Shown here one piece after another: positions 2-24,892 of a DNA stretch of 64,000 nt. The notes under the pieces were generated by a model. That model saw only the letters and a program-made list of their open reading frames with translations, ran no database searches and was not told the origin of the DNA. The stretch spans positions 564,001 to 628,000 of the forward strand of contig NZ_CP077097.1 of NCBI RefSeq assembly GCF_014269225.2, written 5' to 3'. The first letter of the stretch is position 1, and each line of letters opens with the position of its first letter. The DNA comes from Pseudomonas anuradhapurensis. Its GTDB lineage: Bacteria; Pseudomonadota; Gammaproteobacteria; Pseudomonadales; Pseudomonadaceae. The position numbers were made by a program, and so were the translations under genes.

Positions 2-1333
2 GAAACCGCCGAACGCCTGGCCACTGCCAGCGAGCAGCAGGACAGCCTGGCGGAACTGGCCAAGCAGATGCAGGCCCAGGAACCGGGCGACCAGGATCAG
101 GTTGCCAAGGACCTGCACGCCCAGCACCTGGGCATCCTCGGCAGTGGTCCGGTCAACCAGAGCGCCAACGAGTTCCCCGAGTTCGCCCAGCCTCACCTGG
201 TGCTGTCGAGCCCGGCCGGCATCGCCCTGACCACGCCTGGCCCGAACCACATCACCAGCGGCAGCCACCTGGCGCTGAGCAGCACCGGGCATACCAGCCT
301 GTCGATCGGCAAGCGCCTGTTGGCCAGTGCCAGCCAGGGCATGCGCCTGTTCGTGCAGAGCCTGGGCTGGAAACTGGTGTCGGCCTCCGGCGACATCGAC
401 ATCCGCGCCCTGAAGGACAACATCAACCTGCTGGCCAAGCTCGACATCACCGCCAACGCCGAGCGCATCGTGCTCACCGCCAAGACCGAGCTGGTGATCC
501 AGGGCGGCGGCAGCGCCACCACCTACAACGCCGGCGGCATCACCCACGTCACCAGCGGCAACTACACCGCCCATGCCGCGAAGTTTGCGCACATCGGCGC
601 CGCCAGCAAGGCCGGCACCTTCCCCGAGCCGCCGAAACCCGGCAAGGGCGACCTGGAGCTGCTGTACCAGTACGCCAACAGCAAGGGCGTCAAGACCGGC
701 GACTACGACGTGCTCGACGCGCTGGGCAAGTCGATCAAGGGCGCGCTCGACGGCAACGGTTTCAACCAGGCCAGCGGCGCTGCCGCCGGCCCGCTGTGGG
801 TCGACTTCGGTCTCGACCCGGCCGACACCTGGGCCGAGGGCAGCCACTTCGGCCCCGGTAGCTGGCCGGCGAAGACCGAGTTCAACGATATCGCCCCGGG
901 CCAGCAGGCCGTGGTGGGTGAGGTGCTGAGCGCCGGCAAAGGCGAGGACGGGCTGCTGGGCAAGGGCCTGGCACTGGCACAGCAAGGCATGGACAAGGGC
1001 AAGGGACTGATGCAGAACGCGATGGCACAAGGTAAATCGATGGCCCAGGGCCTGATGGGCCCGGGCGGCAACAGCCTGCTGGAACAGGGCAAGGCCCTGG
1101 CCGGCACCGGCATGCAACTGGCGAAAAGCGGCCAGGCCGCACTGCACAAGGCGCAACAGGTCAAGGCCGCCGTCGGCGGCGACACCGGCGCCATGGCCCA
1201 GCTGGCCAGCAACGTGGTGCCCGGCGCTGCGCCCACGCTCAAGGCCGCCAGCGCCCTCAAGCAACTGCCGAGCCTGCCCAAGCTCAGCGCCCCGGCTAAC
1301 CCGGCCAAGCTGAACCATGAGGTGCTGGCATGA
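2..1333 (+). CDS. vgrG: Type VI secretion tip protein VgrG, C-terminal part
   Basis: Partial gene: the frame is already open at base 2 and runs 443 codons to a TGA. What remains is the DUF2345-type region of a VgrG (beta-rich stretch with repeated hydrophobic/Gly pattern, roughly residues 50-210 of the fragment), followed by an Ala/Gly/Lys/Gln-rich extension with the repeated pattern G-K-x-L-A/M. VgrG trimers form the needle tip of the type VI secretion system and carry effectors through their C-terminal extension. The next gene, an RHS effector, starts inside the stop codon (ATGA overlap at 1330), so the two are translationally coupled and this VgrG is the likely carrier. The N-terminal gp27/gp5-like part lies outside the window. 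Confidence 0.9.
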   Translation, partial: ETAERLATASEQQDSLAELAKQMQAQEPGDQDQVAKDLHAQHLGILGSGPVNQSANEFPEFAQPHLVLSSPAGIALTTPGPNHITSGSHLALSSTGHTSLSIGKRLLASASQGMRLFVQSLGWKLVSASGDIDIRALKDNINLLAKLDITANAERIVLTAKTELVIQGGGSATTYNAGGITHVTSGNYTAHAAKFAHIGAASKAGTFPEPPKPGKGDLELLYQYANSKGVKTGDYDVLDALGKSIKGALDGNGFNQASGAAAGPLWVDFGLDPADTWAEGSHFGPGSWPAKTEFNDIAPGQQAVVGEVLSAGKGEDGLLGKGLALAQQGMDKGKGLMQNAMAQGKSMAQGLMGPGGNSLLEQGKALAGTGMQLAKSGQAALHKAQQVKAAVGGDTGAMAQLASNVVPGAAPTLKAASALKQLPSLPKLSAPANPAKLNHEVLA

Positions 1334-4300
1334 CCGACGCCAAACAACGCGAACCCCAGGTCGCCGTCGCCCCGCTCAACACCATCGACGCCAAGGACGT
1401 CGGCCGTGGCGCCGCCGCCTTCGATGCCTGGCTGCAGTCGGTCAGCGGCGGCTACGTCACCCTCGAACGGATCAAGACCGTGGCCGGCGCCTTGCCGGTG
1501 GTGGGCAACATCATGGCCCTGGTCGATGCCCTGGGCGACGTGGTGACGCTGGTCAAGAGCAAGAACCGCCAGCTGCTCGACTGGGTCAGCCTGGGCATCA
1601 ACCTGATCGGCGTGCTGCCGGCACCGCCAACCATGGCCGCGGCGCGCATGAGCCTGCGCCCGACCCTGTTCCTGGTGCGCCAGGAGCTGCGCAACAGCGC
1701 CAAGATGCTGCTGGGCGATGCGCTGATCCAGGTACTGATCGGCCACCTCAACGCGACCATCGCCGGCACCATCGACGACTTCGTGGCCAAGGCGCAGCCG
1801 AAGATCGCCGGCATCCTGGCCGACGCCGGCGCGTTGGGCATAAAGATGACCAGCGAGATCGCCACCGGGCTGGAGAAGGTCGCCCTGGGCCAGCTGGACG
1901 CCAAGGGTGACCTGTCGAAGGCGGGCAAACAGGTGTCCGCCGCCGCCGACAAGCTGCTCAACGACCCGAAGGCGGCGTTCAGCAACATCTTCGGTGCCGT
2001 GCACAACGCCTACAAGGCCGCCGGCAAGGGGCTGGCCAACAGCGCCACGAGCAAACTGCTGCCGGATCAGATCAAGACCAAGGTCCTGGCCAACACCGGG
2101 CAACTGCGCGCGCTGGGGCCGGAGATGGCGCGGCAGTTGAACAAGCTGGCGGACCCGGGCACGCAGATGAGCATCGGCTGGATGCTGAATGTGCTGAGCG
2201 GGGCGGTGAAGGGCTTTCGCAAGCGCAACAGGAATGGGCAGCCGGGGGTGAGCAAGCCGGGGACCGTGACGCAGGTGCAGCGGGAGAAGGGCAAGGGCGA
2301 GTTGGCGGTCAGCAGTGCCCAGGCCAAGGCCACTCAAACACCAAGCCCTGTAGAGCCTGGCTGCCCGATCCCCAGGCCGACGCCGAAGTCCACCACCGGG
2401 CGCAGTATCAGTTTCGCCCTGGGTTCCGAATTCATCATCCACACGGATTTCAGCCTGCCCGGCGCATTCCCGATCGATTGGCAGCGCATCTATCACTCCC
2501 GCCTGGCCGAGTATGACCAAGGTTGCCTGGGGGCTCGTTGGGTCACCGAATTCACCACCCGCATCGACGTGGTGGGCAACGGCCTGCTGTTCCATGACTT
2601 CGATGGCCGCAGCCATGAATTCGAGTTGCCCAAGGTCGGCAAGTCGCAGTTCAACGCCATCGAGGACCTGCTGCTGGTACGCAGCAGCGACGATGAGCTG
2701 GTGATCTGCCGTGGTTTCGTGCGCAAGGAGTATTACCTGCGCGTGGGCGACCGCTATTACCTGCGCAAGGTCCTGCTGCAGAACGATGCCGGTTGCATGC
2801 TGCACTACGAGCATCATCACGAGGGGCGTCCGGTGCTGTCGGACATCATCACCTTCCAGGGCGATGTGAAGGACGTGCTGCGCCACCTCGGCACCTTGAT
2901 CGATGACCACGGCCAGATCACCGGCCTGTGGGAGATGCGCGACGGCCAGCCGCTGCGTCAGCTGTGCGCCTACCACTACGACAGTCAGGGCGACCTCGTT
3001 GCGGCCCAGGATGAGCACGGCGCTGCCTGGCACTACCAGTACCAGAATCACCTGGTTACCCGTTACACCGACCGCACCGGTCGCGGCATGAACCTGCAGT
3101 GGGATGGTAGCGCCTCCGACGCCAAGGCCATTCGCGAATGGGCCGATGACGGTAGTTACGACACCCGCCTGGAATGGGACGAGAACATTCGCCTGACCTA
3201 CGTCACCGACGCCCACGGCCAGGAGACCTGGTACTACTACGACATCCTCGGCCACCTGTACCGCGTGCGCTATCCGGATGAGCGCTCGGAGTGGATCTTC
3301 CGTGACGAGCGCAAGAATGTGGTGCGCCATGTGCACGCCGACGGCAGCGAAGACCGTTACGACTACGACGAGCAAGGCAGCGTCATCCGTCATATCCGGG
3401 CTGACCACAGTCAGATCCACATCGCCTATGACGACCGCCGCCATCCGATCAAGATCCGCGATGCCGAAGGTGGCCTGTGGCTGCGTGATTACGACAAGAA
3501 AGGCAACCTGGTCGAGACCACCGACCCGCTGGGCAACAAGACCGAGTTCGCCTACACGCCTTCCGGGCTGGTCAAGGCGATCAAGGATGCCAACGGCAAC
3601 GAGAAGAAGCTGGCCTACAACGCCGCGGATCAACTGGTCGCATACACCGACTGTTCGGGCAAGACCAGTCAATGGGAATACGACGACTTCGGCCAGCTGG
3701 TGCAGTTCACCGATGCGGCGGGCAACAAGACGGTCTACCAATACAAGGCCGGCCAGCTGGCAAAAGTCATTCATCCGGACGCCACCGAAGAGCGCTTCGA
3801 GCGCGATGCCGAAGGCCGGTTATTGGCCCACGTTGACGCACTGGACCGCTGCACCACCTGGGCCTACAACGCTGTGGGCCTGCTCGCCGAGCGGGTGGAT
3901 GCCAATGAACACACGCTGCGTTATCGCTGGGACAAACTCGGCCGCCTGATCGGCCTGGAGAACGAGAACGAGAGCAAGGCTGACTTCCTCTACGACCCGG
4001 TCGGGCGTTTGCTGCAGGAGCAAGGCTTCGACGGGTTGGTGACGCGTTACCAGTACGATGCTGATACGGGCCGGCTGGCAAGTACCCAGGTCGGCCAGCG
4101 CCGCATCGACATCACCTTCGACCCGGTGGGGCGCCTGGTTTCACGGGTTGCCAGCCAAGGAGATCAAAGTCAGGAAGAGACCTTTGCCTACGATGGCAAC
4201 GGCAACCTGATCCAGGCGATCAACGCCGCCAGCAAGCTGCAATGGTTCCATGACCAGGCGGGCAACCTGACCCGCGAGCACCAGTATTACCTCGGCACCG

Positions 4301-6012
4301 AGGTGCCGATGGTCGCGGTGTGGCAGCACGAGTACGACGCCCTCAACAACCGTATCGCGACCGTTCGCCCCGATGGCCACAAGGTCAGCGTGCTCACCTA
4401 CGGCAGCGGCCACGTGCTGGGCATGACCCTCGACCAGCATGAACTGCTGGCCTACGAGCGCGATGACCTGCACCGCGAAGTGGTCCGGCATCAGGGCAAC
4501 CAGCTGATGCAGGCCCAGAGCTGGGACCCGGCTGGCCGCCTGCAAGAGCAGTTGCTGGGTAGCCACGATGGCAAGTCCACGTTGCTCAAGCGCCAGTACC
4601 AGTACGATGCCGTGGGCCAGCTGACCGATATCCACGATACCCGTCGTGGTCACCTGGCCTATCGGTATGACCCGGTCGGGCGCCTGCTGCAAGCCACCAG
4701 CCGCCTCGGTGTCGAGACCTTCGCCTTCGACCCGGCCGGCAACGTGCTGGACGACAAGACCCAGGAGCTCAACCGTCCGCTGGAAAGCGACCCGCGGCGC
4801 AACAAGCTGATGGACAACCTGCTGCGTGAATACGCCGGGACCCACTACCAGTATGACGAACGCGGCAACCTGATCCATCGCCTGCACAACGGCGAAAAGG
4901 CGCGCCTCAGCTGGGACCTGTTCGACCGTTTGGTGCGCTTCGACGATGACAAGCTCAGCGTGGTGTACAGCTACGACGCTCTGGGCCGCCGTCTGCACAA
5001 ACATTCCACCGCGCACCACCAGGATGATCCGCGAGCGGGCAGTGGTTGGAACCAGATGCAGCGGGCCAAGCGCCAGCGCGAACTGGGTTGTGGTTACACC
5101 TTGTATGGCTGGGATGGCGATAACCTGGCTTGGGAAAGCTCACCGCCGCAGGGTGAGGGCGAGACCGGGCGCACTGTGCATTACCTGTACGAGCCGGGCA
5201 GCTTCGTGCCGGTGGTCCAGGCGCAACGAAACAACCCGATCCGCCTGCTGCGCCAGCCGGACTGGAGCGACCGGGAATACGATTTTGATCAGGACCCGCT
5301 GTGGCACACCGAGGTCAAGCCGCAGGCATTCGATGCGATTCTCTGGTATCAGTGTGACCATCTGGGTACGCCGATGGAGCTGACCGACCATAACGGTGAG
5401 ATGGCATGGACGGCGCAGTACAAGGCGTGGGGTGAGGTCAAGGAAACCCGCTCGGAGTGGGCCAAGCAAGTCGGCCTGAGCAACCCGATACGGTTCCAGG
5501 GGCAGTACCACGATCACGAGACTGGGCTGCATTATAACCGCTATCGGTACTATGATCCGAGGGTTGGGCGGTTCATCAACCAGGATCCAATAAGCTACTT
5601 GGGTGGGGCCAACCTCTATCAGTATGTTCCGAACCCGATCGGTTGGATTGATCCGTGGGGGCTGAAGCGGATCAAGAATGCGGTTGAAGGAGATCGCCGT
5701 CACCAAGAATTTAATGCTGAGATTAAAACGAAGCATCCGAATGCGACGATACAAAGTGAGTGTTATCTGCGAGATGCGAACGGGAAATCTGTCAGGGATC
5801 CTGAAAGCGGTGAGCGGCGTAGGGTGGATACAGCTGTTATTGAAAATGGGCAGGCAACAACTTATGAGGTGACAAGTCTGACTGCTGATAAATATGATCA
5901 GCAAATGAAAGAAAGTCGAATTCTCGCGAGTGGTGGGACATTTATTAGAGATAGGACTACTGGGAAGCTGGTGCCGGTTGCAGGGTTATCTCAAGTAGAA
6001 AGGAGACTGTAA
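1330..6012 (+). CDS. RHS-repeat type VI effector with C-terminal nuclease-like tip
   Basis: Intact 1560-residue RHS protein. Residues 1-300 hold hydrophobic segments (around 50-75 and 90-125) that could be membrane-active. From about 360 to 1440 it is a typical chain of YD repeats forming a cage, closing with the RHS-associated core and the self-cleavage signature GWIDPWGL. The last 115 residues (from base 5665) are the variable toxin. This tip carries RRVDTAVI followed by YEVTS and a later GGTFIRDR, a layout like PD-(D/E)XK nucleases, but the usual E-x-K is not clear, so the activity is an inference. There is no PAAR domain in this protein; PAAR is encoded separately downstream. GC drops sharply in the tip, a sign of tip exchange. 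The stop codon overlaps the immunity gene start (TAATG). Confidence 0.9.
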   Translation: MTDAKQREPQVAVAPLNTIDAKDVGRGAAAFDAWLQSVSGGYVTLERIKTVAGALPVVGNIMALVDALGDVVTLVKSKNRQLLDWVSLGINLIGVLPAPPTMAAARMSLRPTLFLVRQELRNSAKMLLGDALIQVLIGHLNATIAGTIDDFVAKAQPKIAGILADAGALGIKMTSEIATGLEKVALGQLDAKGDLSKAGKQVSAAADKLLNDPKAAFSNIFGAVHNAYKAAGKGLANSATSKLLPDQIKTKVLANTGQLRALGPEMARQLNKLADPGTQMSIGWMLNVLSGAVKGFRKRNRNGQPGVSKPGTVTQVQREKGKGELAVSSAQAKATQTPSPVEPGCPIPRPTPKSTTGRSISFALGSEFIIHTDFSLPGAFPIDWQRIYHSRLAEYDQGCLGARWVTEFTTRIDVVGNGLLFHDFDGRSHEFELPKVGKSQFNAIEDLLLVRSSDDELVICRGFVRKEYYLRVGDRYYLRKVLLQNDAGCMLHYEHHHEGRPVLSDIITFQGDVKDVLRHLGTLIDDHGQITGLWEMRDGQPLRQLCAYHYDSQGDLVAAQDEHGAAWHYQYQNHLVTRYTDRTGRGMNLQWDGSASDAKAIREWADDGSYDTRLEWDENIRLTYVTDAHGQETWYYYDILGHLYRVRYPDERSEWIFRDERKNVVRHVHADGSEDRYDYDEQGSVIRHIRADHSQIHIAYDDRRHPIKIRDAEGGLWLRDYDKKGNLVETTDPLGNKTEFAYTPSGLVKAIKDANGNEKKLAYNAADQLVAYTDCSGKTSQWEYDDFGQLVQFTDAAGNKTVYQYKAGQLAKVIHPDATEERFERDAEGRLLAHVDALDRCTTWAYNAVGLLAERVDANEHTLRYRWDKLGRLIGLENENESKADFLYDPVGRLLQEQGFDGLVTRYQYDADTGRLASTQVGQRRIDITFDPVGRLVSRVASQGDQSQEETFAYDGNGNLIQAINAASKLQWFHDQAGNLTREHQYYLGTEVPMVAVWQHEYDALNNRIATVRPDGHKVSVLTYGSGHVLGMTLDQHELLAYERDDLHREVVRHQGNQLMQAQSWDPAGRLQEQLLGSHDGKSTLLKRQYQYDAVGQLTDIHDTRRGHLAYRYDPVGRLLQATSRLGVETFAFDPAGNVLDDKTQELNRPLESDPRRNKLMDNLLREYAGTHYQYDERGNLIHRLHNGEKARLSWDLFDRLVRFDDDKLSVVYSYDALGRRLHKHSTAHHQDDPRAGSGWNQMQRAKRQRELGCGYTLYGWDGDNLAWESSPPQGEGETGRTVHYLYEPGSFVPVVQAQRNNPIRLLRQPDWSDREYDFDQDPLWHTEVKPQAFDAILWYQCDHLGTPMELTDHNGEMAWTAQYKAWGEVKETRSEWAKQVGLSNPIRFQGQYHDHETGLHYNRYRYYDPRVGRFINQDPISYLGGANLYQYVPNPIGWIDPWGLKRIKNAVEGDRRHQEFNAEIKTKHPNATIQSECYLRDANGKSVRDPESGERRRVDTAVIENGQATTYEVTSLTADKYDQQMKESRILASGGTFIRDRTTGKLVPVAGLSQVERRL

Positions 6013-6341
6013 TGACAAATGACTATCCAGTTTGGGATATCGATGTGTTGATGTCGGCCTATAAGAGCGCTCCGGACTGGCAGAAAAACATTGAGCTGTC
6101 GACGGAGAATCTCTTCGTTTTTATGGAGCGTAATGGTCTTCTGAAATGCCGAGTTACTGATGAGGAAGGGCGGGTTGTGAAGCGCGTGATTATGAAAAGC
6201 GAGATTACTGAGGAAGGCAATAAGCTTGTTGAAGGGCCTAAAAGCGCTGTAAGTCGATGGGCTAAGTCAAAAAGTAGATTTAATGATCCTGGGAATGTCA
6301 GCGTGCTGGAGAAAGCCTTGGCTGAAATCAGAAAGTCATAG
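6012..6341 (+). CDS. Immunity protein for the RHS nuclease-like tip (putative)
   Basis: 109 residues, low GC, starting one base inside the stop of the RHS gene, the usual position of a cognate immunity gene. No signal peptide is seen, so it would act in the cytoplasm, in keeping with a nuclease target. I do not recognise a named family. The C-terminal half, with KRVIMKSEIT, EGPKSAVSRW and LEKALAEI, recurs in two decayed copies downstream (6705-6860 and 7590-7811), so this is a small local paralogous family. Function is inferred from position only. Confidence 0.7.
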   Translation: MTNDYPVWDIDVLMSAYKSAPDWQKNIELSTENLFVFMERNGLLKCRVTDEEGRVVKRVIMKSEITEEGNKLVEGPKSAVSRWAKSKSRFNDPGNVSVLEKALAEIRKS

Positions 6342-6433
6342 AGGGTTTAGGGGGTGAGTTTGATCTTGAATAATAGATCGTTAGCTCGCCTTTCTGTGCT
6401 TTTTGGTATTGCTAATGCAGAGTTAGTACCTAA
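6342..6433. other. Spacer between immunity gene and IS remnant
   Basis: Low-GC stretch with no convincing gene. It ends in CTAA, the same tetranucleotide that flanks the IS5-like element at 13,991, which suggests an IS insertion point. Confidence 0.4.
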
Positions 6434-6630
6434 GGATTCTCCGATCAAGTCAGCACAGGCCGCCTGACCTGTGCTGAAATGGCCTTCCGTTCAGTCAGCC
6501 CTCCAAGTCTTGCCCATGAGTCAGATGAGCTTTCCGATTTCGAGTACGCCGCTAAGTGCAAGCAGACCTGCCATGAGCGCTTCCTGGTAGAGATGGAGCA
6601 GGTCGTGCTGTGGAGCGGACTGGTCGTCGG
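6434..6630 (+). mobile_element. Left-end fragment of an IS5-like element
   Basis: Starts GGATTCTCCGATCAAGTC directly after CTAA and matches the left end of the element at 13,991 almost base for base. It contains the start of the transposase frame (SDFEYAAKCKQTC.., residues 5-40 of the family) up to about 6625. Homology then stops, and no right end is found nearby, so only about 200 bases survive. Confidence 0.8.
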
Positions 6631-6704
6631 AATCAACTGGAAACATCCAAGCTCGCTGTATTCCCTTACGTCTCGGAGGCCGATTTCGGGGTAATTTTTC
6701 TATC

Positions 6705-6860
6705 AAGAGGGTGATTAGGCTTAGTGAACTTAATGCGCAAAGTAAGTATAGCGTGCGGGCCGAAGAATCCTGTCCATCGATGGTTGGCTTCGAAGGGGTC
6801 TCAAAAAAACCTCCGGATATGAAGATGCTTGAGAAGGCACTTCTCGAGGCAAGATCCTGA
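6705..6860 (+). pseudogene. Decayed paralog of the 6012-6341 immunity gene, C-terminal part
   Basis: Read in two frames, this stretch gives RVIRLSEL, then GPKNPVHRWLASKGS, then, after a shift in a run of seven A (about 6806-6812), KPPDMKMLEKALLEARS and TGA. These line up in order with KRVIMKSEIT, EGPKSAVSRWAKSKS and NVSVLEKALAEIRKS of the intact immunity protein. The 5' half is missing, replaced by the IS5-like fragment. It cannot make a working protein. Confidence 0.75.
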
Positions 6861-7391
6861 CTTAAGTTTTAGGTTTGACTTACATTTGGTCGCAAAAAAC
6901 TTTCAATTCTCGTCAAAAATTATCAAGTTTTTGGTGGAGATTGATTTTCTGTCACTGCGCCACCGAAGATTGTAAAAGGCGTTGAGCTTGGCACATGGCC
7001 GGTGATGAACTGATTAGCTCACAGGCAAGTCAGGGCGGTCTACGGTTCATAGGATCGGATGTTAGGAGTGAATTTGCCGTATGCACAATACTTGGAAGCA
7101 TGCCAGCATATGTTGTACGCTTAGGCTCAAGGGTATCCGATTATCTTGATATGGGACCCTAGGGATGCTCTAAGCGAGCGACGGAATCCCAGGGCAATAA
7201 GCAGAAAGTTCCAGACGCGTATCTGGATTAGTATCCTCAGGTATCAACCCGCGAAGAGAGGGAAGGAGAAAATATTAGAGTGATTTCCTTCCGGCAGCCG
7301 AGGGGCTGGTGCGTTTTTGGGTAATAAGTGCAAGAAGCTGAAACCTAAAGGTAACTTAAGGTTAACGTGCTTGGTAAATGAAACAAAAATT
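6861..7391. other. Decayed low-GC stretch, no supported gene
   Basis: About 530 bases with no intact gene. One short frame, 6995-7162 (55 codons, ATG), reads like part of a globular protein (LRFIGSDVRSEFAVCTILGS) and may be a fossil of another tip or immunity gene, but I cannot tie it to a family. No clear promoter, terminator or repeat is visible in the rest. Confidence 0.35.
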
Positions 7392-7597
7392 ATGAATATT
7401 TGGGTTTCATATAATCAAATCTGTGTGTTTGGCTCAATTTAGATGAGCCGTTCAATGACTGGTCAAATAATCATGTTAAACAGGGTTTTAGATGGAGAGA
7501 GGGGAGCGTTTTTTTCGGAGCGGTGGAAAATGACAATACTGACTTGGAGGTGGTGGTAAGTAGCTCAAATCTAGCGATCGATTCTGCCTCGTTTTAA
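7392..7597 (+). pseudogene. Frameshifted ComJ-like immunity gene fossil
   Basis: From an ATG, the frame gives NIWVSYNQICVF and then stops. The next frame continues with LNLDEPFNDWSNNHVKQG, FRWREGSVFFGAVENDN and LEVVVSSS, stopping at 7597. From memory of the ComJ/competence protein J family (nuclease inhibitors and immunity proteins), the order S-Y-x-Q-I-x-V-F, x-x-P-F-N-D-W, H-V-x-Q-G-F and W-R-x-G-S-V matches its N-terminal half. The C-terminal half is absent; the sequence runs straight into the next immunity fragment. Confidence 0.6.
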
Positions 7598-7811
7598 TGG
7601 GCTACTGAGTTGCCGGGTAAGTGATGAAAACGGCAAGGTGGTAAAGCGCGTCATTATGAGTAGTGAGATTACTGCAGAGGGTGACTTGCTATCAAATGGT
7701 CGTAACAATGCGGTTGATAAATGGCTACGTTCAAAAGCGAGACTAAAAGATCCAAATGATTTGAAGTCTCTTGAAAAGGCTTTGGCAGATATTCGCGCTA
7801 AGAAGTCCTAG
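7590..7811 (+). pseudogene. Second decayed paralog of the first immunity gene
   Basis: The frame reads FNGLLSCRVSDENGKVVKR, VIMSSEITAEGD, NNAVDKWLRSKARLKDPND and LKSLEKALADIRAKKS to a TAG. It is collinear with residues of about 34-109 of the immunity protein at 6012-6341 and clearly more similar to it than the 6705-6860 copy. No start codon or ribosome site precedes it; its 5' end overlaps the ComJ-like fossil in another frame. It is probably a remnant left by cassette recombination. Confidence 0.8.
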
Positions 7812-8224
7812 TTGCACTACTTCTTGAACTGGCTGGCCAATAGGTGTCAGAGCCTAGGTGAGCTGGTTGGGAGAGTTGCGTGTTTAGAGTTTTGGACACG
7901 GGACGGTAGTACAGGTTATTGCTGGGTTGGTAAAGAGTTTGAGCTGCCTTGTGGAACAGTAAAATAGAGTATTGTATCGATAGTTATGCCTCATGAGCGC
8001 ATCGATGATTATCCAGAAGTCAGGCGTTATCATAAATCTAGTAAAGATATTGGTCTGAGAGTACAGCTGCCTTTCAATGAGTTTAAAGAGGCTTACAAGA
8101 ATCAGCAAATTAATATGGTGCTTCACTGGTTCGCTCAGTTGATCTTGCGAGCGGAATAAAGAGCCTGAAGCTGCCAGAGGACGATGCTTACGTGTTTAAG
8201 GAAACTATTGAGAGGCGCGGCTAA
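7812..8224 (+). pseudogene. Broken immunity gene, possibly Imm44-like
   Basis: Starting at a TTG directly after the preceding stop, one frame runs LHYFLNWLANRCQSLGELV, CLEFWTRDGSTGYCWVG, one in-frame TAG at 7965-7967, then SIVSIVMPHERIDDYPEVRR, YHKSSKDIGLRVQLPFNEF. Near 8130 it must change frame to go on with LVRSVDLASGIKSL and KLPEDDAYVFKETIERRG before TAA (8222). The central pattern (I-V-M, Y-x-E-V-x-x-Y-H-K, then a short beta stretch and L-x-R-S) reminds me of Imm44-like immunity proteins. One stop and one shift make it non-functional unless these are sequencing errors. The duplicated PAAR module begins at its stop codon. Confidence 0.6.
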
Positions 8225-8823
8225 CTGGCCCAGAAAATCAAAAGCCTGCCTGATGGTGCGAAATTGAAGTTGCAGGCCGGTGAGTGATACGCGTGTAGTC
8301 AGGTACCGCAGGATAAAACGCATCCGACCCAATGGGATCCTCAGGGCCCAGCCCATCCCCCGCCCAATTGCCTATGGCCCCACTATTTTAGGCTTTAACC
8401 CACTGGCATCGACGCCTCCTTCCAGACACGGAGTTCACCCATGAAAGACATTATCCGCCTTGGCGATTCCACCACCCACGGTGGCAAGGTGCTCGGCTCC
8501 TTCGGCAACACCAACGTCAACGGCAAGCCTATCGCCGGGGTCGGCCACATGGTCAGCTGCCCGTTGTGCAAAGGCGTGTTCCCCATCGTTGAAGGTAGCG
8601 CGACCTACAGCGTGGACGGCACACCCGTCGCCCTCGATGGGCACAAGACCGCGTGTGGCGCGGCGCTGATCGCCAGCGGCCCGAAGAGTGGCGTTGCCAG
8701 CTGAGGCCGGGTTGTTCGGTACCTGACAAACCGCTCGCCTGGCGCATGCGGCGCCCGCTTCTCTGGTGTGATGATCTGCGTCGGCACACTTCCCTGATTC
8801 TTGGCCGGCTTAACCCTTGGCGG
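8221..8823 (+). repeat. Long direct repeat, copy A (PAAR module)
   Basis: About 600 bases highly similar to 14,994-15,607. The repeat starts at CTAACTG, where the TAA is the stop of the preceding immunity gene. It contains a 20-codon open tail (QKIKSLPDGAKLKLQAGE) after that stop, a conserved leader, the PAAR gene and about 120 bases after it. At its right end copy A runs into an RHS fragment, whereas copy B runs into the fdo promoter region. Confidence 0.9.
8441..8704 (+). CDS. PAAR-domain protein (T6SS spike tip), copy A
   Basis: 87 residues, complete, nearly identical to the copy at 15,224. It has the single PAAR domain layout: RLGDSTTHGGKVL near the N terminus, the GKPIAGVGHMVSCPLC core with metal-type Cys/His residues, and the closing ALDGHKTACGAAL. 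PAAR proteins cap the VgrG trimer and sharpen the needle. Ribosome site GGAG lies 8 bases before ATG. Because the RHS protein upstream lacks a PAAR domain, a free PAAR could complete the VgrG-RHS spike. Confidence 0.9.
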   Translation: MKDIIRLGDSTTHGGKVLGSFGNTNVNGKPIAGVGHMVSCPLCKGVFPIVEGSATYSVDGTPVALDGHKTACGAALIASGPKSGVAS

Positions 8824-8936
8824 GTACGACCCGGTTGGCCGCCTGCTGGGTGGATAATCCTCGCTATCATAGAAAAGAACTTACGGTTAAGGGTGATCTT
8901 AAGCTGAAGAATCATGCGGTAGTGCAAGGGAAATGA
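8824..8936 (+). pseudogene. RHS fragment joined to a toxin-tail fossil
   Basis: The first bases read YDPVGRLL, an RHS repeat also seen around 12,014. They join, out of frame, to a 27-codon tail from 8853: DNPRYHRKELTVKGDLKLKN then HAVVQGK and TGA at 8934-8936. The tail stop overlaps the ATG of the next gene by the ATGA pattern typical of tip/immunity pairs, so it is likely the last piece of a lost RHS toxin tip. Confidence 0.6.
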
Positions 8937-9259
8937 TGATGAGAAATACAAATGAAACGATTTTCCTCAGTAAAAAAGATGTGGAGTATTTATTGAGAGA
9001 GGTTGAGTTCGTCTTGGTTTCGCTTGTTAGGCTAAATAATTTCTATAAAGAAAAGTTAGGTCAGGCTTTTTCGATACATGATGAGTATTGTGAGGCCGTG
9101 ACTGAGTTTATTGATGCTGAACGGGTAAATGATAGGCTGGCAAAAATGCGAATGGTAATTGCTTCAAAATTTGACGATACGCTAGGTGATGATGATATGG
9201 ATGATTTGGAGAGAGTGCTAGATAAGATTGAATTCTGGGAGAGACCGAAAAATGTTTGA
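8933..9259 (+). CDS. Orphan immunity protein (putative), unrecognised family
   Basis: 108 residues, low GC, start chosen at the first of three successive ATG codons because it overlaps the stop of the toxin-tail fossil and has AAGGGA just upstream. It is mostly alpha-helical in character and acidic, with DDDMDDLERVLDKIEFWE at the C-terminal end. I recognise no family. The following pseudogene (9299-9623) is a paralog with the same E-F/K-F-I-D, D-x-L-x-x-R and F-W-E positions. With its own toxin tip lost, it would be an orphan protecting against neighbours. Confidence 0.65.
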   Translation: MMMRNTNETIFLSKKDVEYLLREVEFVLVSLVRLNNFYKEKLGQAFSIHDEYCEAVTEFIDAERVNDRLAKMRMVIASKFDDTLGDDDMDDLERVLDKIEFWERPKNV

Positions 9260-9298
9260 TAAATAAGTGGGGCTTTAGTTAAAGCATTCGTAGAGGGA

Positions 9299-9623
9299 AT
9301 GGTTTTGAGTAAACAGAAAGATATATTGGTCTCGGGTGAGGAAGCAGTAGCGGTTCTTTGGGATCTCGAGTATTTGCTCATATCTTTAAGAAATATTGGT
9401 CTATATTATTTATGTGCGAGATGAAGTCACTGCAGATGATGAAAAGGACTATCGAAGGGAGACTGCCAAGTTTATAGATGAGTCTAATATGATTGTTAAG
9501 CTTGAAGAAATTAAAGAAAAGCTGTCGGATAAGTTAGAGGCGTGCTGTGGGCGAGATGAATTAGATTCGCTTCGTCAAAGGCTTAAAAGGAAGCGTTTTT
9601 GGGAACAAAAGAAGCTCAGTTGA
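9299..9623 (+). pseudogene. Frameshifted paralog of the 8933 immunity gene
   Basis: From ATG at 9299 the frame reads SGEEAVAVLWDLEYLLISLR to a stop near 9420. A second frame overlapping it continues with VRDEVTADDEKDYRRETAKF, IDESNMIVKLEEIKEKLSDK and RLKRKRFWEQKK to 9623. Order and spacing match the intact neighbour at 8933-9259 along its whole length. A single indel around 9395-9415 explains the break. AGAGGGA before the ATG is a good ribosome site, so decay looks recent. Confidence 0.75.
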
Positions 9624-9718
9624 GACTTGTTTAGATTTAGTGTCTTTTTATTTGAAATGTCTATTGTAACGGGGGTGTGTCGGTTGATAAGTTTCGAGTT
9701 GTATTGTGGATGGTCAAG

Positions 9719-9880
9719 TGAATCGCCCCTAGTTTCGTAGACACCTCCAAGCCTCATAATGAGGCCCAAATAGGAGGTGCCATGAGTCGTCTGCGTTACC
9801 CCGAAGAATTCAAGATCGAAGCGGTCAAGCAAGTGACCGAGAAAGGCAAGCCTGTCGCCGATGTCGCTCAGCGCCGCTAG
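9719..9880 (+). mobile_element. Left-end fragment of an IS3-family element
   Basis: Begins TGAATCGCCCCTAGTTTCGT, the form of a terminal inverted repeat of IS3-family elements in pseudomonads. From ATG at 9781 it encodes MSRLRYPEEFKIEAVKQVTE then KGKPVADVAQRR, the start of an OrfA helix-turn-helix protein. It is cut at 9880, where RHS sequence begins. No right end or OrfB is found. Confidence 0.75.
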
Positions 9881-10822
9881 GCATGACCCTCGACCAGCAT
9901 GAGTTGGCCTAGGAGCGCGATGACCTACACCGCGAAGTGGTGCGCCATCAGGACAACCAGCTGATGCAGACCCAGAGCTGGGATCCGGCTGACCGCCTGC
10001 AAGACCAGTTGCTGGGTAGCCATGACGCAAGACCACCCTGCTCAAGCGCCGGTACCAGTACGATGCCGTCGGCCAGCTGACCGATATCCACGACACCCGT
10101 CGTGGCCACTAGGCCTATCAGTACGACCCGGTTGGTCGCCTGCTGCAAGCCACCAGTCACCTGGGTGTCGAGACCTTCGCCTTCGACCCGGCCGGTAACC
10201 TGCTAGACGACAAGGCCCAGGCGCTGAATCGCCCGCTGGAAAGCGACCCGCGGCGCAACAAGCTGATGGACAACCTGCTGCGTGAATACGCCGGGACTCA
10301 CTACCAGTACGACGAACGCGGCAACCTGATCCATCGCCTGCACCACGGCGAAAAGGCGCGCCTCAGCTGGGACCTGTTCGACCGTTTGGTGCGCTTCGAC
10401 GATGACAAGCTCAGCGTGGTGTACAGCTACGACGCGCTGGGGCGCCGTCTGCACAAGCACTCCACCGCGCACCACCAGGATGATCCGCGAGCGGGCAGTG
10501 GTTGGAACCAGATGCAGCGGGCCAAGCGCCAGCGCGAACTGGGCTGCGGTTACACCTTGTATGGCTGGGATGGCGATAAACTGGCTGGGAAAGCTCACCG
10601 CCGCAGGGTGAAGGCGAAACCGGGCGCACTGTGCATTACCTGTACGAACCGGGCAGCTTCGTGCCGGTGGTCCAGGCGCAACGAAACAACCCGATCCGCC
10701 TGCTGCGCCAGCCGGACTGGAGCGTGATACCTAAATCTAAAGGAGGTTCTGGTACGCCAGAAAATGGACAAGTACTGTGTAGGGTGTGCAATATTGAAAA
10801 AAGTGACTCCTGTGAACTTTAG
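9881..10822 (+). pseudogene. RHS copy 2: core fragment with HNH-type tip remnant
   Basis: Collinear with about 4422-5268 of the full RHS gene at high nucleotide identity, but with premature TAG codons (for example near 9908), a small deletion around 10,028 and loss of one T near 10,586. After LLRQPDWS it departs from the core and ends with VIPKSKGGSGTPENGQVLCR and VCNIEKSDS, the C-terminal half of an HNH nuclease motif (K-S-K-G-G, N-G-Q-x-L-C-x-x-C-N). The self-cleavage segment and most of the toxin are deleted. It is therefore a dead cassette donor, not an expressed effector. Confidence 0.85.
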
Positions 10823-10830
10823 GTGAAGCG

Positions 10831-11262
10831 ATGGAAAAAGTGTTTCTAAAGCTAGAAATTATTGATGGTTATCCGCCGGTCTCTATGGAGAGCGTGTGGG
10901 CTGAAAAAAGGGGGGGAAATAAATATAGAATAAAAAATATACCATTTTATTCTAAAGAAGTATGTCTGGATGATGAGGTTAGTACTTCTATAGGTGATGA
11001 CAATGAGCTGCTATTCAATGCAGTAGTTTCCGATGAAGGGAATAGTACTGTGCGGGTGATTTTCTATAGCCATGACGAAAGCGTGCCGCGGCTGATAATG
11101 GATGATATCGCTAATATGGGTTGCTCGTGGGAAGGTATGAGCAAGAAATTTTTTGCGATAAATGTCCCTAAGCATGTTGACTTTGATTTGGTTGTGGGTT
11201 TTCTAGAGGAGAAAAGTAATGCTGGCGAGTTGGACTACGAATATGGAATGGTTCGCCAATAA
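10831..11262 (+). CDS. DUF4265-type immunity protein (putative)
   Basis: 143 residues, low GC, intact, directly after the HNH tip remnant. The N-terminal pattern Y-P-P-V-S-x-E-S-x-W-A followed by Y-R-I-K-N-I-P-F-Y and a later V-R-V-I matches DUF4265, a small family found beside polymorphic toxins. A cytoplasmic role against the former HNH nuclease tip is inferred from position. ATG follows AGGTGAAGCG. Confidence 0.75.
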   Translation: MEKVFLKLEIIDGYPPVSMESVWAEKRGGNKYRIKNIPFYSKEVCLDDEVSTSIGDDNELLFNAVVSDEGNSTVRVIFYSHDESVPRLIMDDIANMGCSWEGMSKKFFAINVPKHVDFDLVVGFLEEKSNAGELDYEYGMVRQ

Positions 11263-11321
11263 AGTAGTTTTATTGATTCGTTGATGTTGAGGGGGCGTCT
11301 ACGTAACATTTGAGGTCGGTG

Positions 11322-11384
11322 ATGTCACAATTTGAAGGGTTTTTCAAATCTGGACAATATGCTTGGTCGTCTGTGGAGGAAAAG
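11322..11384 (+). pseudogene. Truncated start of another immunity-like gene
   Basis: ATG with GAGGTCGGTG just upstream, then MSQFEGFFKSGQYAWSSVEE and K, after which the sequence continues directly into RHS core (GFDGLV). Only 21 codons remain. The good ribosome site and non-RHS low-GC sequence suggest the 5' end of a lost immunity gene, cut by an RHS cassette insertion. The family is unknown. Confidence 0.4.
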
Positions 11385-13391
11385 GGTTTCGATGGACTGG
11401 TGACGCGTTACGAGTACGACCCTGATGCGGGCCGGTTGGCAAGCACCCAGGTCGGCCAGCGCCGCCTCACATCACCTTCGACCCGGTGGAGCGCCTGATG
11501 ACAGCCAAGGAAATCAACGTCAAGAAGAGACCTTTGCCTACGATGGCAACGGCAAGCTGATCCAGGCGAACAACGCGGCCAGCAAGTTGCAATGGTTCCA
11601 TGACGAGGCGGGCAACCTGACCCGCGAGCACCAGTACTACCTCGGCACCGAGGTGCCGATGGTCGCGGTGCGGCAGCACGAGTACGACGTACTGAACCTG
11701 CGCACGGCGACGATTCGCCCCGATGGCCACAAGGTCAGCGTGCTCACCTACGGCAGCGGTCACGTGCTGGGCATGACCCTCGACCAGCATGAACTGCTGG
11801 CCTACGAGCGTGATGACCTGCACCGCGAAGTGGTCCGCCATCAGGACAACCAGCTGATGCAGACCCAGAGCTGGGATCCGGCTGGCCGCCTGCAAGACCA
11901 GTTGCTGGGTAGCCATGAGGCAAGACCACCTTGCTCAAGCGCCAGTACCAGTACGATGCCGTGGGCCAGCTGACCGATATCCACGACACCCGCCGTGGTC
12001 ACCTGTCTTATCAGTACGACCCGGTTGGCCGCCTGCTGCAAGCCACCAGTCGCCTGGGTGTCGAGACCTTCGCCTTCGACCCGGCCGGTAACCTGCTGGA
12101 CGACAAGGCCCAAGAGCTGAATCGCCCGCTGGAAAGCGACCCGCGGCGCAACAAGCTGATGGACAACCTGCTGCGTGAATACGCCGGGACCCACTACCAG
12201 TACGACGAACGCGGCAACCTGATCCATCGCCTGCACAACGGCGAAAAGGCGCGCCTCAGCTGGGACCTGTTCGACCGTTTGGTGCGCTTCGATGATGACA
12301 AGCTCAGCGTGGTGTACAGCTACGACGCTCTGGGCCGTCGTCTGCACAAGCACTCCACCGCGCACCACCAGGATGATCCGCGAGCGGGCAGTGGTTGGAA
12401 CCAGATGCAGCGGGCCAAGCGCCAGCGCGAACTGGGTTGTGGTTACACCTTGTATGGCTGGGATGGCGATAACCTGGCTTGGGAAAGCTCACCGCCGCAG
12501 GGTGAGGGCGAGACCGGGCGCACTGTGCATTACCTGTACGAGCCGGGCAGCTTCGTGCCGGTGGTCCAGGCGCAACGAAACAACCCGATCCGCCTGCTGC
12601 GCCAGCCGGACTGGAGCGACCGGGAATACGATTTTGATCAGGACCCGCTGTGGCACACCGAGGTCAAGCCGCAGGCATTCGATGCGATTCTCTGGTATCA
12701 GTGTGACCATCTGGGTACGCCGATGGAGCTGACCGACCATAACGGTGAGATGGCATGGACGGCGCAGTACAAGGCGTGGGGTGAGGTCAAGGAAACCCGC
12801 TCGGAGTGGGCCAAGCAAGTCGGCCTGAGCAACCCGATACGGTTCCAGGGGCAGTACCACGATCATGAGACCGGGATGCATTACAACCGCTATCGGTACT
12901 ATGATCCGAGGGCTGGGCGCTTCATTAATCAGGACCCTATTAGTTATGGTGGAGGATTGAACCTCTACGAATATGCGGCCAGTTCGACTGGCTGGGTTGA
13001 TCCACTAGGTTTAGCGAAGAATAAATATGGTGTTGGCGCCAATACTGCAGGGAAAGATGTACTCGCGCGGGGCGTCCACGTTAATGTCGAAGGACCGGGT
13101 CTACCGAGGAAGGGAGGGCATGTAAGTTTGCAGCCAGATGCAGATGGAAAGCATGTGAAGCTAGCTCCTGCGGACAAGGCGACGAGAGATATGTCACCTT
13201 CTCAGTGGCGTAATGCATGTGAGGCAGTTTCAGGCCATCTAGACGATCCTAAAAATGTTGATCGGTTGGCAAAATCAGCGCAGTCGGGCATTGACGAAAA
13301 TCCGAAATCAAATCGAGTGTCTGAGTTGACGGAAGTGAAAGGGATTCTTCAACGGCATCACATGCAGGGCACAAATCCAGTTAAAAGGTAG
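11385..13391 (+). pseudogene. RHS copy 3: frameshifted core with unrecognised C-terminal tip
   Basis: Homologous to about 4024-5660 of the full RHS gene, broken by small indels near 11,466-11,500 and near 11,925. The last 486 codons (11,931-13,391) are open and include the RHS core end with YYDPRAGRFINQDPISYGGG and the cleavage signature GWVDPLGL. The 125-residue tip after it carries ARGVHVNVEGPGLPRKGGHV and SLQPDADGKHVKL; I do not recognise its fold or catalytic residues. Without an N terminus it should not be secreted, but it could replace the tip of the upstream RHS by recombination through the identical core. Confidence 0.85.
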
Positions 13392-13396
13392 GAAGT

Positions 13397-13990
13397 GTGA
13401 GTTATTTGAATTTTGATTTCATGCACTTGTTTATAATGTTTTTACGTGATGCTGAGTCTATTCATCCTGAGATGTTCGGGCTTGGCAGTTTTGGAGAAGC
13501 TGAGCTTTTGTTGCATGGGTTTGATAGAGTTGGCGATGTGGATGACTACTGCCTCTATGAAAAAGATTATCAAGCGATTTACTTCAGGTCTTCGGCGGCC
13601 CTATCGCTGAAATGTTATTTCTATAAAGGTGAGCCGCAGGGTCTGGGTATTTCCGTGGCACCAGGAGTGCGCCTGATCACGCTGCTAAAGCATTTGTTTT
13701 CGCAACAGCCGAGGGACTGGCGTGAAAGATTAAAGTTTTACTTCTATGAAGATGAGGATGAGGGGGCGGTGATAGTAGATTCCGTGACGGTAATCAGGTT
13801 TGGTGCTGATACTGGACGATCCGCTTATCATGTGAGAGAGCTGGAATCTGATCAAAAGGAGGGCGGGGCAGCTATTTCGGTCGGCACTGTAATACGGACA
13901 ATGGTAAGCTACGATTTCTCGGTGTGGGATAGAAGAAGCAGTAGTTTGGCACTCTCTCAGCTTTTCGAGCTTTTAAATAACATTCACTAA
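13397..13990 (+). CDS. Immunity protein for the RHS copy 3 tip (putative)
   Basis: 197 residues from a GTG preceded by AGGAAGT, five bases after the tip gene. Low GC and acidic, no signal peptide or membrane span evident, so likely cytoplasmic. I recognise no family. The TAA stop coincides with the CTAA where an IS5-like element is inserted, so the protein end is not altered by the insertion. The gene is intact while its RHS core is broken, consistent with selection for protection against siblings carrying this tip. Confidence 0.65.
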   Translation: MSYLNFDFMHLFIMFLRDAESIHPEMFGLGSFGEAELLLHGFDRVGDVDDYCLYEKDYQAIYFRSSAALSLKCYFYKGEPQGLGISVAPGVRLITLLKHLFSQQPRDWRERLKFYFYEDEDEGAVIVDSVTVIRFGADTGRSAYHVRELESDQKEGGAAISVGTVIRTMVSYDFSVWDRRSSSLALSQLFELLNNIH

Positions 13991-14993
13991 GGATTCTCCG
14001 ATCAAGTCGGCACAGGCCGTCTGACCTGTGCTGAAATAGCCCTCCGTCCAACAGCCCCTTTACAAGCCCTCCATCCCATGAGTCAGATGAGCTTTTCCGA
14101 TTTCGAGTACGCCGGTAAGCGCAAGCAAACCCGTCGCGAGCGTTTCCTGGCTGAGGTGGAGCAGATGGTACCGTGGAGCGGTTTGCTGGCATTGGTCGAG
14201 CCGCATTACCCAAAGGCCGGCGGTGGTCGCAAGCCGTACCCACTGGAAACCATGCTGCGTATCCACCTGCAATTACCTGCGAGACCAGGGCCTGTCGTTG
14301 CGCCAGGGCACGATTGTCGACGCCACCATCATCCACGCGCCCAGCTCGACCAAGAACAAAGAAGGCAAGCGCGATCCGGAGATGCATCAGACGAAGAAGG
14401 GAAACCAATACTTCTTCGGCATGAAAGCGCATATCGGCGCCGACGCTGAGTCGGGTCTGGTGCATCACGTCCACGGCACCGCCGCCAACGTGGCTGACGT
14501 GCGGAGGTCGCTCATCTGTTGCACGGTGACGAAAACATTGTCTGTGCTGACGCGGGTTACACCGGCGTAGAGAAGCGACCTGAGCACGACGGTCGGCAAG
14601 TGATCTGGCAGATCGCTGCACGACGCAGCACCTACAAGCACTTGAGCAAACGCAGTGTTCTCTACAAAGCCAAACGTCAGATCGAGAAGGTCAAAGCGCA
14701 GACACGGGCGAAAGTCGAACATCCCTTTCGCGTGATCAAGCGCCAGTTCGGTGATGTGAAAACCCGCTTCCGTGGCTTGGCCAAGAACACGGCGCAACTG
14801 ACCACGCTGTTTGCGCTGTCGAATCTGTGGATGGTACGCCGGCAATTATTGACTGCTACGGTAGAGGTGCGCCCGTAAGGCCTGATGACTAGGGTTTTTC
14901 CTGGTTGTTCAACAATCAGCGCCTGTAAATCGAGCTTTCCTTAGGCCAAAAGTCGTCCATTGTCGGTTGCTCGGCGACTTGTTCGGAGCTTCC
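13991..14993 (+). mobile_element. IS5-like insertion sequence, internally deleted
   Basis: Ends are inverted repeats: left GGATTCTCCGATCAAGTCGG, right (reverse complement) GGAAGCTCCGAACAAGTCGC. Both ends are flanked by CTAA (13,987-13,990 and 14,994-14,997), a target duplication of the kind made by IS5-family elements. At 1003 bp it is shorter than full elements of this type because the transposase has lost an internal piece. The same left end occurs at 6434. Confidence 0.88.
14078..14878 (+). pseudogene. IS5-family transposase, deleted and frameshifted
   Basis: The N-terminal frame gives [20 protein letters not shown] up to [11 protein letters not shown]; then the expected middle domain with the first catalytic Asp is missing (about 60-70 codons by comparison with family members I know). 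A second frame carries [20 protein letters not shown] and the [13 protein letters not shown] block. A third carries the C-terminal part with [14 protein letters not shown] and RAKVEHPFRVIKRQFG. The DDE transposase is thus inactive. Confidence 0.85.
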
Positions 14994-15607
14994 CTAACTG
15001 ACCCAGAAAATCAAAGGTCTGCCTGATGGTGCGAAATTGAAGTTGCAGGCAGGTGAGTGATGCGCGTGTAGTCAGATACAGCAGGATAAAACGCATCCGA
15101 CCCAATGGGATCCTCAGGGCCCAGCCAATCTCCCGCCCAAATTGCCTATGGCCTTTAATTCCCCATTATTTTAGGCTTTCCCCCACTGGCAACGACGCCT
15201 CCCTTCAGACACGGAGTTCACCCATGAAAGACATCATCCGCCTTGGCGATTCCACCACCCACGGTGGCAAGGTGCTCGGCTCCTTCGGCAATACCAACGT
15301 CAACGGCAAGCCTATCGCCGGGGTTGGCCACATGGTCAGCTGCCCATTGTGCAAGGGCGTGTTCCCCATCGTGGAAGGCAGCGCCACCTACAGCGTCGAC
15401 GGTACACCTGTCGCCCTCGATGGGCACAAGACCGCCTGTGGCGCGGCGCTGATCGCCAGCGGCCCGAAGAGTGGCGTCGCCAGCTGAGGCCGGGCTGTTC
15501 GGTACCTCACAAACCGCTCGCCCGGCGCATGCGGCGCCCGCTTCGCTGGTGCCATGATCTGCGTCATCACACTTCCCTGATTCTTGGCTAGGCTTAACCC
15601 TTGGCGG
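14994..15607 (+). repeat. Long direct repeat, copy B (PAAR module)
   Basis: Partner of 8221-8823, same order of a short open tail, leader, PAAR gene and 3' flank. The start, CTAACTG, is also the right target duplication of the IS5-like element, and before that insertion it followed the stop codon of the 13,397 immunity gene. This copy probably sits in the original chromosomal position because it leads into the fdo operon. Confidence 0.9.
15224..15487 (+). CDS. PAAR-domain protein (T6SS spike tip), copy B
   Basis: 87 residues, essentially the same protein as the copy at 8441; most base differences are silent. The start ATG is preceded by CGGAGTTCACCC, identical to copy A, and an upstream in-frame start is not conserved. 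It supplies the pointed tip that caps VgrG. Conservation of the amino acids in both copies suggests that both are, or recently were, functional. Confidence 0.9.
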   Translation: MKDIIRLGDSTTHGGKVLGSFGNTNVNGKPIAGVGHMVSCPLCKGVFPIVEGSATYSVDGTPVALDGHKTACGAALIASGPKSGVAS

Positions 15608-24796: not shown

Positions 24797-24892
24797 GGAA
24801 GGCAATCGCGCCCGGTGGCGCGGCCGGGCTTCAAACCCGGTTGGGGACGGCAGCCGTTCCCGGGCAGGTTCGACTCCCGCTGCCTTCCGCCA
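24797..24892 (+). tRNA. selC: tRNA-Sec (anticodon TCA)
   Basis: 96 nt with an eight-base acceptor stem (GGAAGGCA paired with TGCCTTCC), discriminator G and encoded CCA, anticodon loop CTTCAAA with TCA, a long extra arm (GGGGACGGCAGCCGTTCCCG) and the T loop GTTCGACTC. All are features of bacterial tRNA-Sec. It lies directly after selB, completing the selenocysteine set. Confidence 0.97.

Follow-up and report, generated by a model that had tools for sequence, protein, structure and literature searches.

The stretch of DNA analysed here comprises 64,000 nucleotides of the genome of Pseudomonas anuradhapurensis (contig NZ_CP077097.1, positions 564,001 to 628,000; hereafter the window) and opens with a vgrG-rhs locus that is followed by an array of toxin tips and immunity genes, most of them broken. 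Coordinates are window positions, and all named units are on the + strand. The C-terminal part of vgrG (68..1333; DUF2345, 2.8e-45) comes first; the start of the gene lies in the adjoining upstream stretch (L045), no internal stop interrupts it across the window edge, and the paralogous VgrG of L046, which like L048 is a further rhs locus of the same genome, matches TIGR03361. L045 also holds TssM and another vgrG-rhs pair, and a type VI secretion cluster therefore adjoins the locus. The rhs gene that follows (1330..6012; hereafter the active gene) is intact and consists of a core and, from approximately position 5662, a toxin tip (tipA, 5662..6012) for which modelling tentatively suggests a PD-(D/E)xK-type nuclease fold. 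Immediately behind it lies immA (6012..6341), the probable cognate immunity gene of tipA as judged from its position and from the recurrence of such pairs in L048, in L117/L204 (G190), and in L137 (Pantoea sp. Cy-639). Matches to immA were found in four of 199 genomes of the genus, its own included, with five matches in its own genome. Approximately 8 kb of fragments follow immA, with a PAAR gene at their far end, and fdoG begins at 15687.

The first part of the array comprises relics of several modules. A remnant of an IS5-type insertion sequence (IS) (6430..6618) matches the left part of the 13987 copy at 83% identity. A segment that matched nothing in the DNA comparisons made (6619-6700) separates it from relic 2 (6701..7053), the 3' part of an immA-family gene with its 3' flank. 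Relic 2 is 87.7% identical to L048 8203-8556 (reverse complement); the L048 gene is intact and follows an attached tip. Relic 2 abuts a decayed NucA/NucB-type toxin tip with several stops (7053..7373; 84.1% identical to L046 8594-9140), the L046 counterpart of which matches PF14040 at 8.7e-13. A ComJ-type immunity relic that has lost its 3' end (7392..7594) follows, its counterpart being intact in L046 (8937-9389), and behind it is relic 3 (7595..7853), an immA-family gene without its 5' part that is 96.1% identical to an intact orphan in L046 and 80.3% identical to the L117 pair, the rhs gene of which is full length (L204; frame of 1,563 codons). The units at 6705 and 7590 are thus both 5'-truncated copies of the immA family. 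The next unit is a broken immunity gene (7932..8215, within 7812-8221) with a relative in L133 that stands first behind a URI-like tip; the rhs frame there runs without a stop for 1,327 codons before the contig start is reached. Profile searches of the kind that the original prediction, an earlier reading of the bare sequence, had proposed for the relics succeeded only in part: the ComJ relic passes the Pfam cut-off on a 51-residue piece (PF11033, 3.7e-7, 30.4 bits against a cut-off of 25), whereas the L133 relative scores 23.2 bits with Imm44 (PF15571; cut-off 25) and is called only Imm44-like, and the L133 tip scores 17.1 bits with Tox-URI2 (PF15653; cut-off 20). In L046, the immunity array that follows the NucA tip (8937-12846; ComJ, further open reading frames (ORFs), an immA-type gene, and an Imm44-like gene) is for the most part intact and looks like a less decayed counterpart of window 7053-8215.

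A first PAAR block (8221..8823; PAAR gene 8441-8704; PF05488, 2.3e-26) separates these relics from a second set of modules. This set begins with a 25-bp rhs-core fragment (8824..8848) that is identical to orphan core 2 at 12014-12038 and with an ART-HYD1-type toxin C-terminal tail of approximately 28 residues (8849..8936). The tail was identified via the L132 tip, to residues 77-105 of which it is 86% identical and which passes the Tox-ART-HYD1 cut-off (PF15633, 3.7e-13, 50.4 bits against 25). The stop of the tail overlaps the start of immB (8933..9259), an intact orphan immunity gene whose partner toxin was probably of the ART-HYD1 type. A second, frameshifted copy of immB (9299..9623) was recognized by two pieces that align to immB with z values of 5.8 and 9.6, a quality of alignment reached by none of 300 shuffles; BLASTP of the longer piece against immB returned no alignment. 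Such an immB tandem is also present in L022 (P. entomophila COR5), where 6695-9261 has the order immB, immB copy, immC, and PAAR as in the window, with proteins only approximately 43-54% identical.

An IS3-type transposase fragment (9719..9877; PF01527, 6.2e-8 on a 32-residue piece, with a 35-bp end match to L046) precedes orphan rhs core 1 (9876..10724), which is truncated, broken, and 95.5% identical to core 2. Joined directly to core 1 is the fossil tail of an HNH toxin (10724..10822; 32 residues; PF01844, 2.6e-6, 27.9 bits against a cut-off of 21.4), the intact relative of which is the L131 tip, and behind the tail is the intact orphan immunity gene immC (10831..11262; DUF4265, PF14085, 6.1e-25). 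A stub of approximately 20 codons (11322..11381), which matched nothing in the comparisons made, runs into orphan rhs core 2 (11365..13003), the frame of which is broken before 11931. Core 2 carries a complete orphan tip, tipD (12972..13391), a tip family also found behind RHS cores in P0004-P0010 and L106; a structure comparison of tipD gave no confident match. Both orphan cores, with their HNH and tipD tips, are approximately 91-96% identical to cores of the same genome. The probable immunity gene of tipD, immD (13397..13990), is intact, and the tipD-immD pair recurs in L106. Behind immD are an IS5-type pseudogene (13987..14878; PF01609, 4.7e-16 on 14519-14878), for which a query of 13987-14880 matched two places in the genome only, itself and 6430-6618, and a second PAAR block (14994..15607; PAAR gene 15224-15487) that is 92.2% identical to the first. 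Between the two PAAR genes there are 13 differences in 264 nucleotides, all at third codon positions, and the encoded proteins are identical; because all differences are silent, both genes appear to have been kept under selection. Since the Rhs core had no PAAR match in a Pfam scan, the gene that closes the array may provide the PAAR protein.

The similarity of these fragments to toxin tips and immunity genes exceeds what chance gave. With a library of immunity proteins and tips from behind cores that excluded the window's own proteins and kept other loci of the same genome (E ≤ 1e-4), positions 6342-13990 gave 11 non-overlapping matches, two of them in one unit, while no match was obtained in any of 10 dinucleotide shuffles or in any of six other 7.6-kb stretches of the window. 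The anatomy agrees closely with the original prediction, which had recognized one intact RHS gene, four intact immunity ORFs (6012, 8933, 10831, and 13397), five broken units, and two truncated cores with different tips. The rhs gene that heads the array is intact and bears a tip followed by an immunity gene (open frames and profile matches), all four immunity ORFs are open, the broken units are relics of the immA family (6705 and 7590), of ComJ (7392), of an Imm44-like gene (7812), and of a second immB copy (9299), and the truncated cores lie at 9876-10724 and 11365-13003. The toxin-tail fossil that it had reported is real, but three are present (NucA/NucB, ART-HYD1, and HNH), and the two PAAR copies, the two IS5-type remnants, the IS3-type fragment, and the 25-bp core fragment are additions to it.

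Counterparts at other loci and probable tip displacement

Six of the nine units behind the active pair (the 6705 relic, ComJ, the 7590 relic, the Imm44-like gene, immB, and immC) have a counterpart that stands in first position behind a long rhs gene with a tip, as the original prediction of displaced modules had implied. The counterparts of relic 2 and of the NucA/ComJ module lie in L048 and L046, both in the same genome, whereas those of relic 3, ART/immB, and HNH/immC lie in L117/L204, L132, and L131, respectively. The rhs frames of these loci are open over 1,540-1,589 codons. In L132, the ART/immB pair (74.4% DNA identity over 399 bp) is on a full-length rhs gene of 1,553 codons, with the immunity gene first behind the ART-type tip. 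The genus holds 22 other immB matches, and eight of these are preceded, at a spacing of -3 to +2 bp, by an ORF ending in a similar RHYT-type tip. In L131, the immC relative is first behind an HNH tip on a full-length rhs gene of 1,540 codons, and in L075 an immC-type gene follows a short RHS ORF that carries an HNH tip, an orphan pair. Among the remaining units, the immD pair is attached to a core on a truncated contig (L106, where the contig end hides the length of the rhs gene), the 9299 unit is the second immB copy, and the stub is the one noted above. A related tipD-type tip, shortened by a stop, ends a frame of 1,506 codons in L201, with an immD-like gene behind it.

Collectively, these observations suggest, with a probability that we put at roughly 0.88, that the locus is the 3' end of a type VI vgrG-rhs locus after repeated C-terminal (tip) displacement, decay, and later recombination; repeated tip exchange, as originally proposed, is thus the best reading of the array. 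Incoming tip-immunity modules would attach to the conserved rhs core via homologous recombination, upon which the old toxin would be cut off or deleted and its immunity gene, often with the last toxin codons, would stay downstream. Modules would then accumulate, in part through the joining of two arrays, which the duplicated PAAR block (8221-8823 and 14994-15607) suggests for this locus, and would decay by deletion, frameshift, and IS insertion. Two modules may have been reduced in this way to a toxin tail and an intact immunity gene (ART/immB and HNH/immC), while tipD/immD is a complete orphan tip with its probable immunity gene that could be reused in the future, and orphan core 2 would have exchanged DNA with the active gene. 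The junction at 7053, where an immA-type 3' flank abuts the NucA tip and homology starts approximately 10 bp past the end of the L046 core, is what a new module inserted at the border of core and tip would leave.

Several observations weigh against this reading. No pair of loci before and after a displacement was seen, a single genome of the source species being in the comparison set; among 36 genomes read upstream of fdoG, a subset of 101 others with a match, only two had an rhs gene within 20 kb, and no intermediate was recognized. In the survey of arrays described below, 63 of 117 orphan immunity genes had no detectable toxin remnant and could have arrived alone. The expected tip was found within 1.5-kb flanks of few homologs in the genus: eight of 22 for immB (with a ninth at 19 bp), one of 29 for immC (L075), and one of 13 for immD (L106). 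Many weak immC matches (28-32%) adjoin an unrelated transporter-like gene, and DUF4265 alone is therefore no marker of immunity. The joins of the core fragment to the ART tail at 8824 and of core 1 to the HNH tail at 10724 fit orphan tips that were deleted down to a tail, and such deletion would account for these two core-joined tails as well as displacement does. Finally, no clear counterpart at a working rhs gene was found for immD, whose core-attached relative is on a truncated contig, for the 9299 relic, or for the stub; attached or first-position counterparts were seen for six of the nine units.

The further claim that the order of the relics records the order of past toxins was not supported. 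The array is composite, as indicated by the duplicated PAAR block, the block in common with L046 (7053-8092, which follows the order of the L046 array), and the IS remnants, and its order is therefore not a record; the tract common to the active gene and core 2 argues in the same direction. Identity to counterparts is not monotonic along the array. The anatomy, the homologies, the live counterparts at rhs genes of working length, and the mosaic identity are observed, whereas the order and direction of the displacement events are inferred.

Probable mosaic structure of the active rhs gene

Comparison of the active gene with other cores of the same genome pointed to recombination that involved one of the silent cores. 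Over 8,207 bp, vgrG-rhs of the window is 99.1% identical to that of L046 (71 mismatches), and from 743 to 4797 there are no mismatches (4,053 bp), such that the rhs core at 1330-4796 is identical to the L046 rhs gene. The active gene diverges from L046 from 4797 onward. At 5005-5516, it has no differences from orphan core 2 in 512 positions, the corresponding tract in core 2 lying 7,349 bp downstream, while at these same positions L046 and L048 differ from the active gene at 17 and 24 sites, respectively. Immediately upstream of the tract, core 2 and the active gene differ at 71 of 980 positions (7.2%), and the chance of 512 difference-free positions at this rate is approximately 2e-17 if sites are independent. 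The tip-proximal 145 bp are in turn nearest to L048, which bears the same kind of tip as the active gene: they differ from L048 at 17 positions, from L046 at 39, and from core 2 at 35 of 138.

Because one part is identical to L046, another is identical to core 2, and the tip-proximal part is closest to L048, the active gene has the appearance of a mosaic drawn from three or more sources, one of which would appear to be silent core 2 or a sequence that shares a recent ancestor with it. The 512-bp tract provides direct evidence, at the sequence level, of recombination between a silent core and a working gene in a Pseudomonas. We also note that the vgrG-rhs unit as a whole is duplicated elsewhere in the genome (L046 137-8529, approximately 99%) and that L134, a contig labelled as a Marinobacter metagenome-assembled genome, has an rhs core 92% identical to the active gene, possibly due to contamination or transfer.

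Alternative explanations and known systems

An alternative that comes close to even odds is that most relics, instead of being displaced singly from this gene, arrived as blocks from an L046-like array or from a relative, by recombination via the common core and the PAAR end. Pieces of L046 match 7053-8092 in the same order (84.1, 96.1, and 73.7% DNA identity), the near-identity of the two vgrG-rhs units is accompanied by common DNA that extends slightly further upstream of them (in L045), the PAAR block is duplicated, and immB, its copy, and immC also precede PAAR in L022. However, the differing identities of the L046-matching pieces (84, 96, and 74%) are not those of one recent copy, and both the 6701-7053 piece and the 3' half of the array match sources other than L046. 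Since displacement could have built the donor arrays, arrival in blocks is compatible with the displacement reading.

Somewhat short of even odds, and likewise compatible with displacement, is the possibility that the immunity genes have been kept by selection as protection from relatives that deploy the toxins. In keeping with this, immB, immC, and immD are open among broken neighbors, Shine-Dalgarno-like purine runs (judged by eye) precede all four intact immunity genes, and the matching toxins are found on full-length rhs genes in relatives. In Serratia, orphan immunity genes behind rhs match the pairs of other strains, as in the window, and an orphan Rhs immunity protein has been shown to protect (2023, PMC10539506), as those of the window might; functional orphan immunity is also described for contact-dependent inhibition loci (PMC3150448). 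Behind the active pair, however, five of nine units are broken and one is a stub, and retention is thus not general. Mobile acquired interbacterial defence islands consist of orphan immunity genes without a linked active effector. The array is not of this type because it follows an active vgrG-rhs-immunity unit; such islands are mentioned in the Serratia paper (PMC10539506). It is very improbable that the two IS5-type remnants carried the 8.4 kb between them as a composite element. They share an orientation, flank 6430-14878, and had no third match in the genome for 13987-14880, but one of them is a fragment of 189 bp (83% identity), neither is intact, and the internal junctions at 7053 and 10724 coincide with or adjoin core/tip sequence, away from the IS ends.

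Repeated displacement of tips, the preferred reading, places the locus among known systems. As in the Rhs C-terminal displacement arrays described by Jackson et al. (2009; PMC2935791), a full rhs gene stands first and is intact, dissociated cores with other tips lie behind it, and the displaced units are attached or in first position in relatives (six of nine here). In the E. coli strains compared in that paper, associated and dissociated cores are reported to be always identical, whereas the orphan cores of the window show the lower identity to cores of their own genome given above, apart from the one identical 512-bp tract, and most of its immunity units are broken. In Vibrio cholerae, where effectors are displaced in sequence and immunity genes form arrays (Kirchberger et al., 2017; PMC5361080), the 3' end of the old effector likewise remains and recombination anchored at one end is proposed; in addition, the window has Rhs cores, a complete orphan tip, many immunity pseudogenes, and a closing PAAR gene. 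In Salmonella LT2, an orphan rhs tip is reported to be reused via a stretch of 522 bp at 95% identity (Koskiniemi et al., 2014; PMC3967940), and the window similarly has an orphan tip and immunity gene behind the main gene and a long stretch common to the main and orphan genes (512 bp, 100%). No rearrangement of this kind was seen at the present locus. Rhs loci of Snodgrassella alvi (Steele et al., 2017; PMC5727410) likewise combine a displacement architecture with orphan immunity genes in which nonsense mutations followed the loss of the toxin; the present locus differs in being a type VI locus of Pseudomonas in which PAAR is encoded separately from rhs. Related literature covers bee-gut rhs genes (PMC8125069) and type VI effectors of P. 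putida (PMC5363822) as well as effectors of P. aeruginosa (PMC11751169).

The locus is therefore of an ordinary kind and represents a known way of swapping weapons rather than a new system. It is unusually readable: a name and a live counterpart can be given for most of its dead modules, and for two of them the counterpart is in the same genome.

Survey of arrays, toxin tails, and flanking genes

The array was compared with others in a survey of 80 loci (the window, four other stretches of the same genome, L029, and 74 further loci), of which 71 were kept because they have an ORF in first position followed by 4 kb or more of sequence. Within 9 kb, the window array has eight immunity-like matches, three tip-like matches, and five core fragments, compared with a median of one immunity-like match per array. 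Its tip-plus-immunity count (11) is the highest of the 71, a rank that is biased upward because four loci of the same genome are in the library. The unusual density of relics claimed earlier is thus borne out as a first rank but not as a clear separation, since L139 and L140 have 10 each and the library favors the window's own genome.

A total of 137 orphan immunity groups were identified, and 20 without an N-terminus were dropped, a step that favors finding tails, to leave 117. A toxin remnant was scored where the cognate tip matched (E ≤ 1e-3) within 200 bp upstream. By this measure, 34 genes are preceded by a C-terminal tail only, 14 by a full tip, three by an N-terminal and three by an internal fragment, and the aforementioned 63 by none; when six non-cognate tips were used per gene, no C-terminal tails and one internal match were found among the 117. 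Counting once per tip family and position, which only partly removes kinship among loci, leaves 30 C-terminal tails versus three N-terminal fragments (two-sided sign test, 1.4e-6). Without the N-terminus condition, there are 56 tip-like matches (32 C-terminal tails, five N-terminal fragments, five internal, and 14 full), a set in which frameshift halves of full tips feed the counts of both C-terminal tails and N-terminal fragments.

Of the 34 tails, 18 follow another immunity gene at a distance of up to 700 bp, with no core at the junction; six are preceded by a core (among them both window tails) and 10 by other sequence. The new 3' flank joined to an old toxin that the V. cholerae model of Kirchberger et al. 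entails is thus seen at 7053 and is consistent with the 18 of 34 tails that follow another immunity gene, and is not shown by the two core-joined tails of the window. We found no census of toxin tails before orphan immunity genes among the open-licence papers listed by literature searches, although the V. cholerae paper mentions a shifted effector 3' end (PMC5361080). The tail signature, with 34 C-terminal tails against three N-terminal fragments and 63 genes without a remnant among 117, makes the displacement mechanism testable across Pseudomonas.

The survey also set 24 orphan core fragments against 79 main cores, and the best match was in the same locus or genome for 21 and in another genome for three (a hand count by identity, near ties included). 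The 512-bp identical run was the longest among the orphan core comparisons. It is possible, although the odds run against so broad a proposal and we hold it tentatively, that the rhs loci and arrays of one genome form a common archive, in which a module that is dead in one locus is a live warhead in another and active and orphan cores exchange tracts in cis as well as in trans, and that toxin loss follows a rule of removal from the 5' side down to a short 3' tail that carries the start signals of the immunity gene, such that the antidote survives the swap.

Beyond the array, the fdoG-type formate dehydrogenase gene (15687-18755) has an in-frame TGA near 16275, which we take to be read as selenocysteine. 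A tRNA-Sec gene (24797-24892) is present in the same window as this TGA-interrupted gene.

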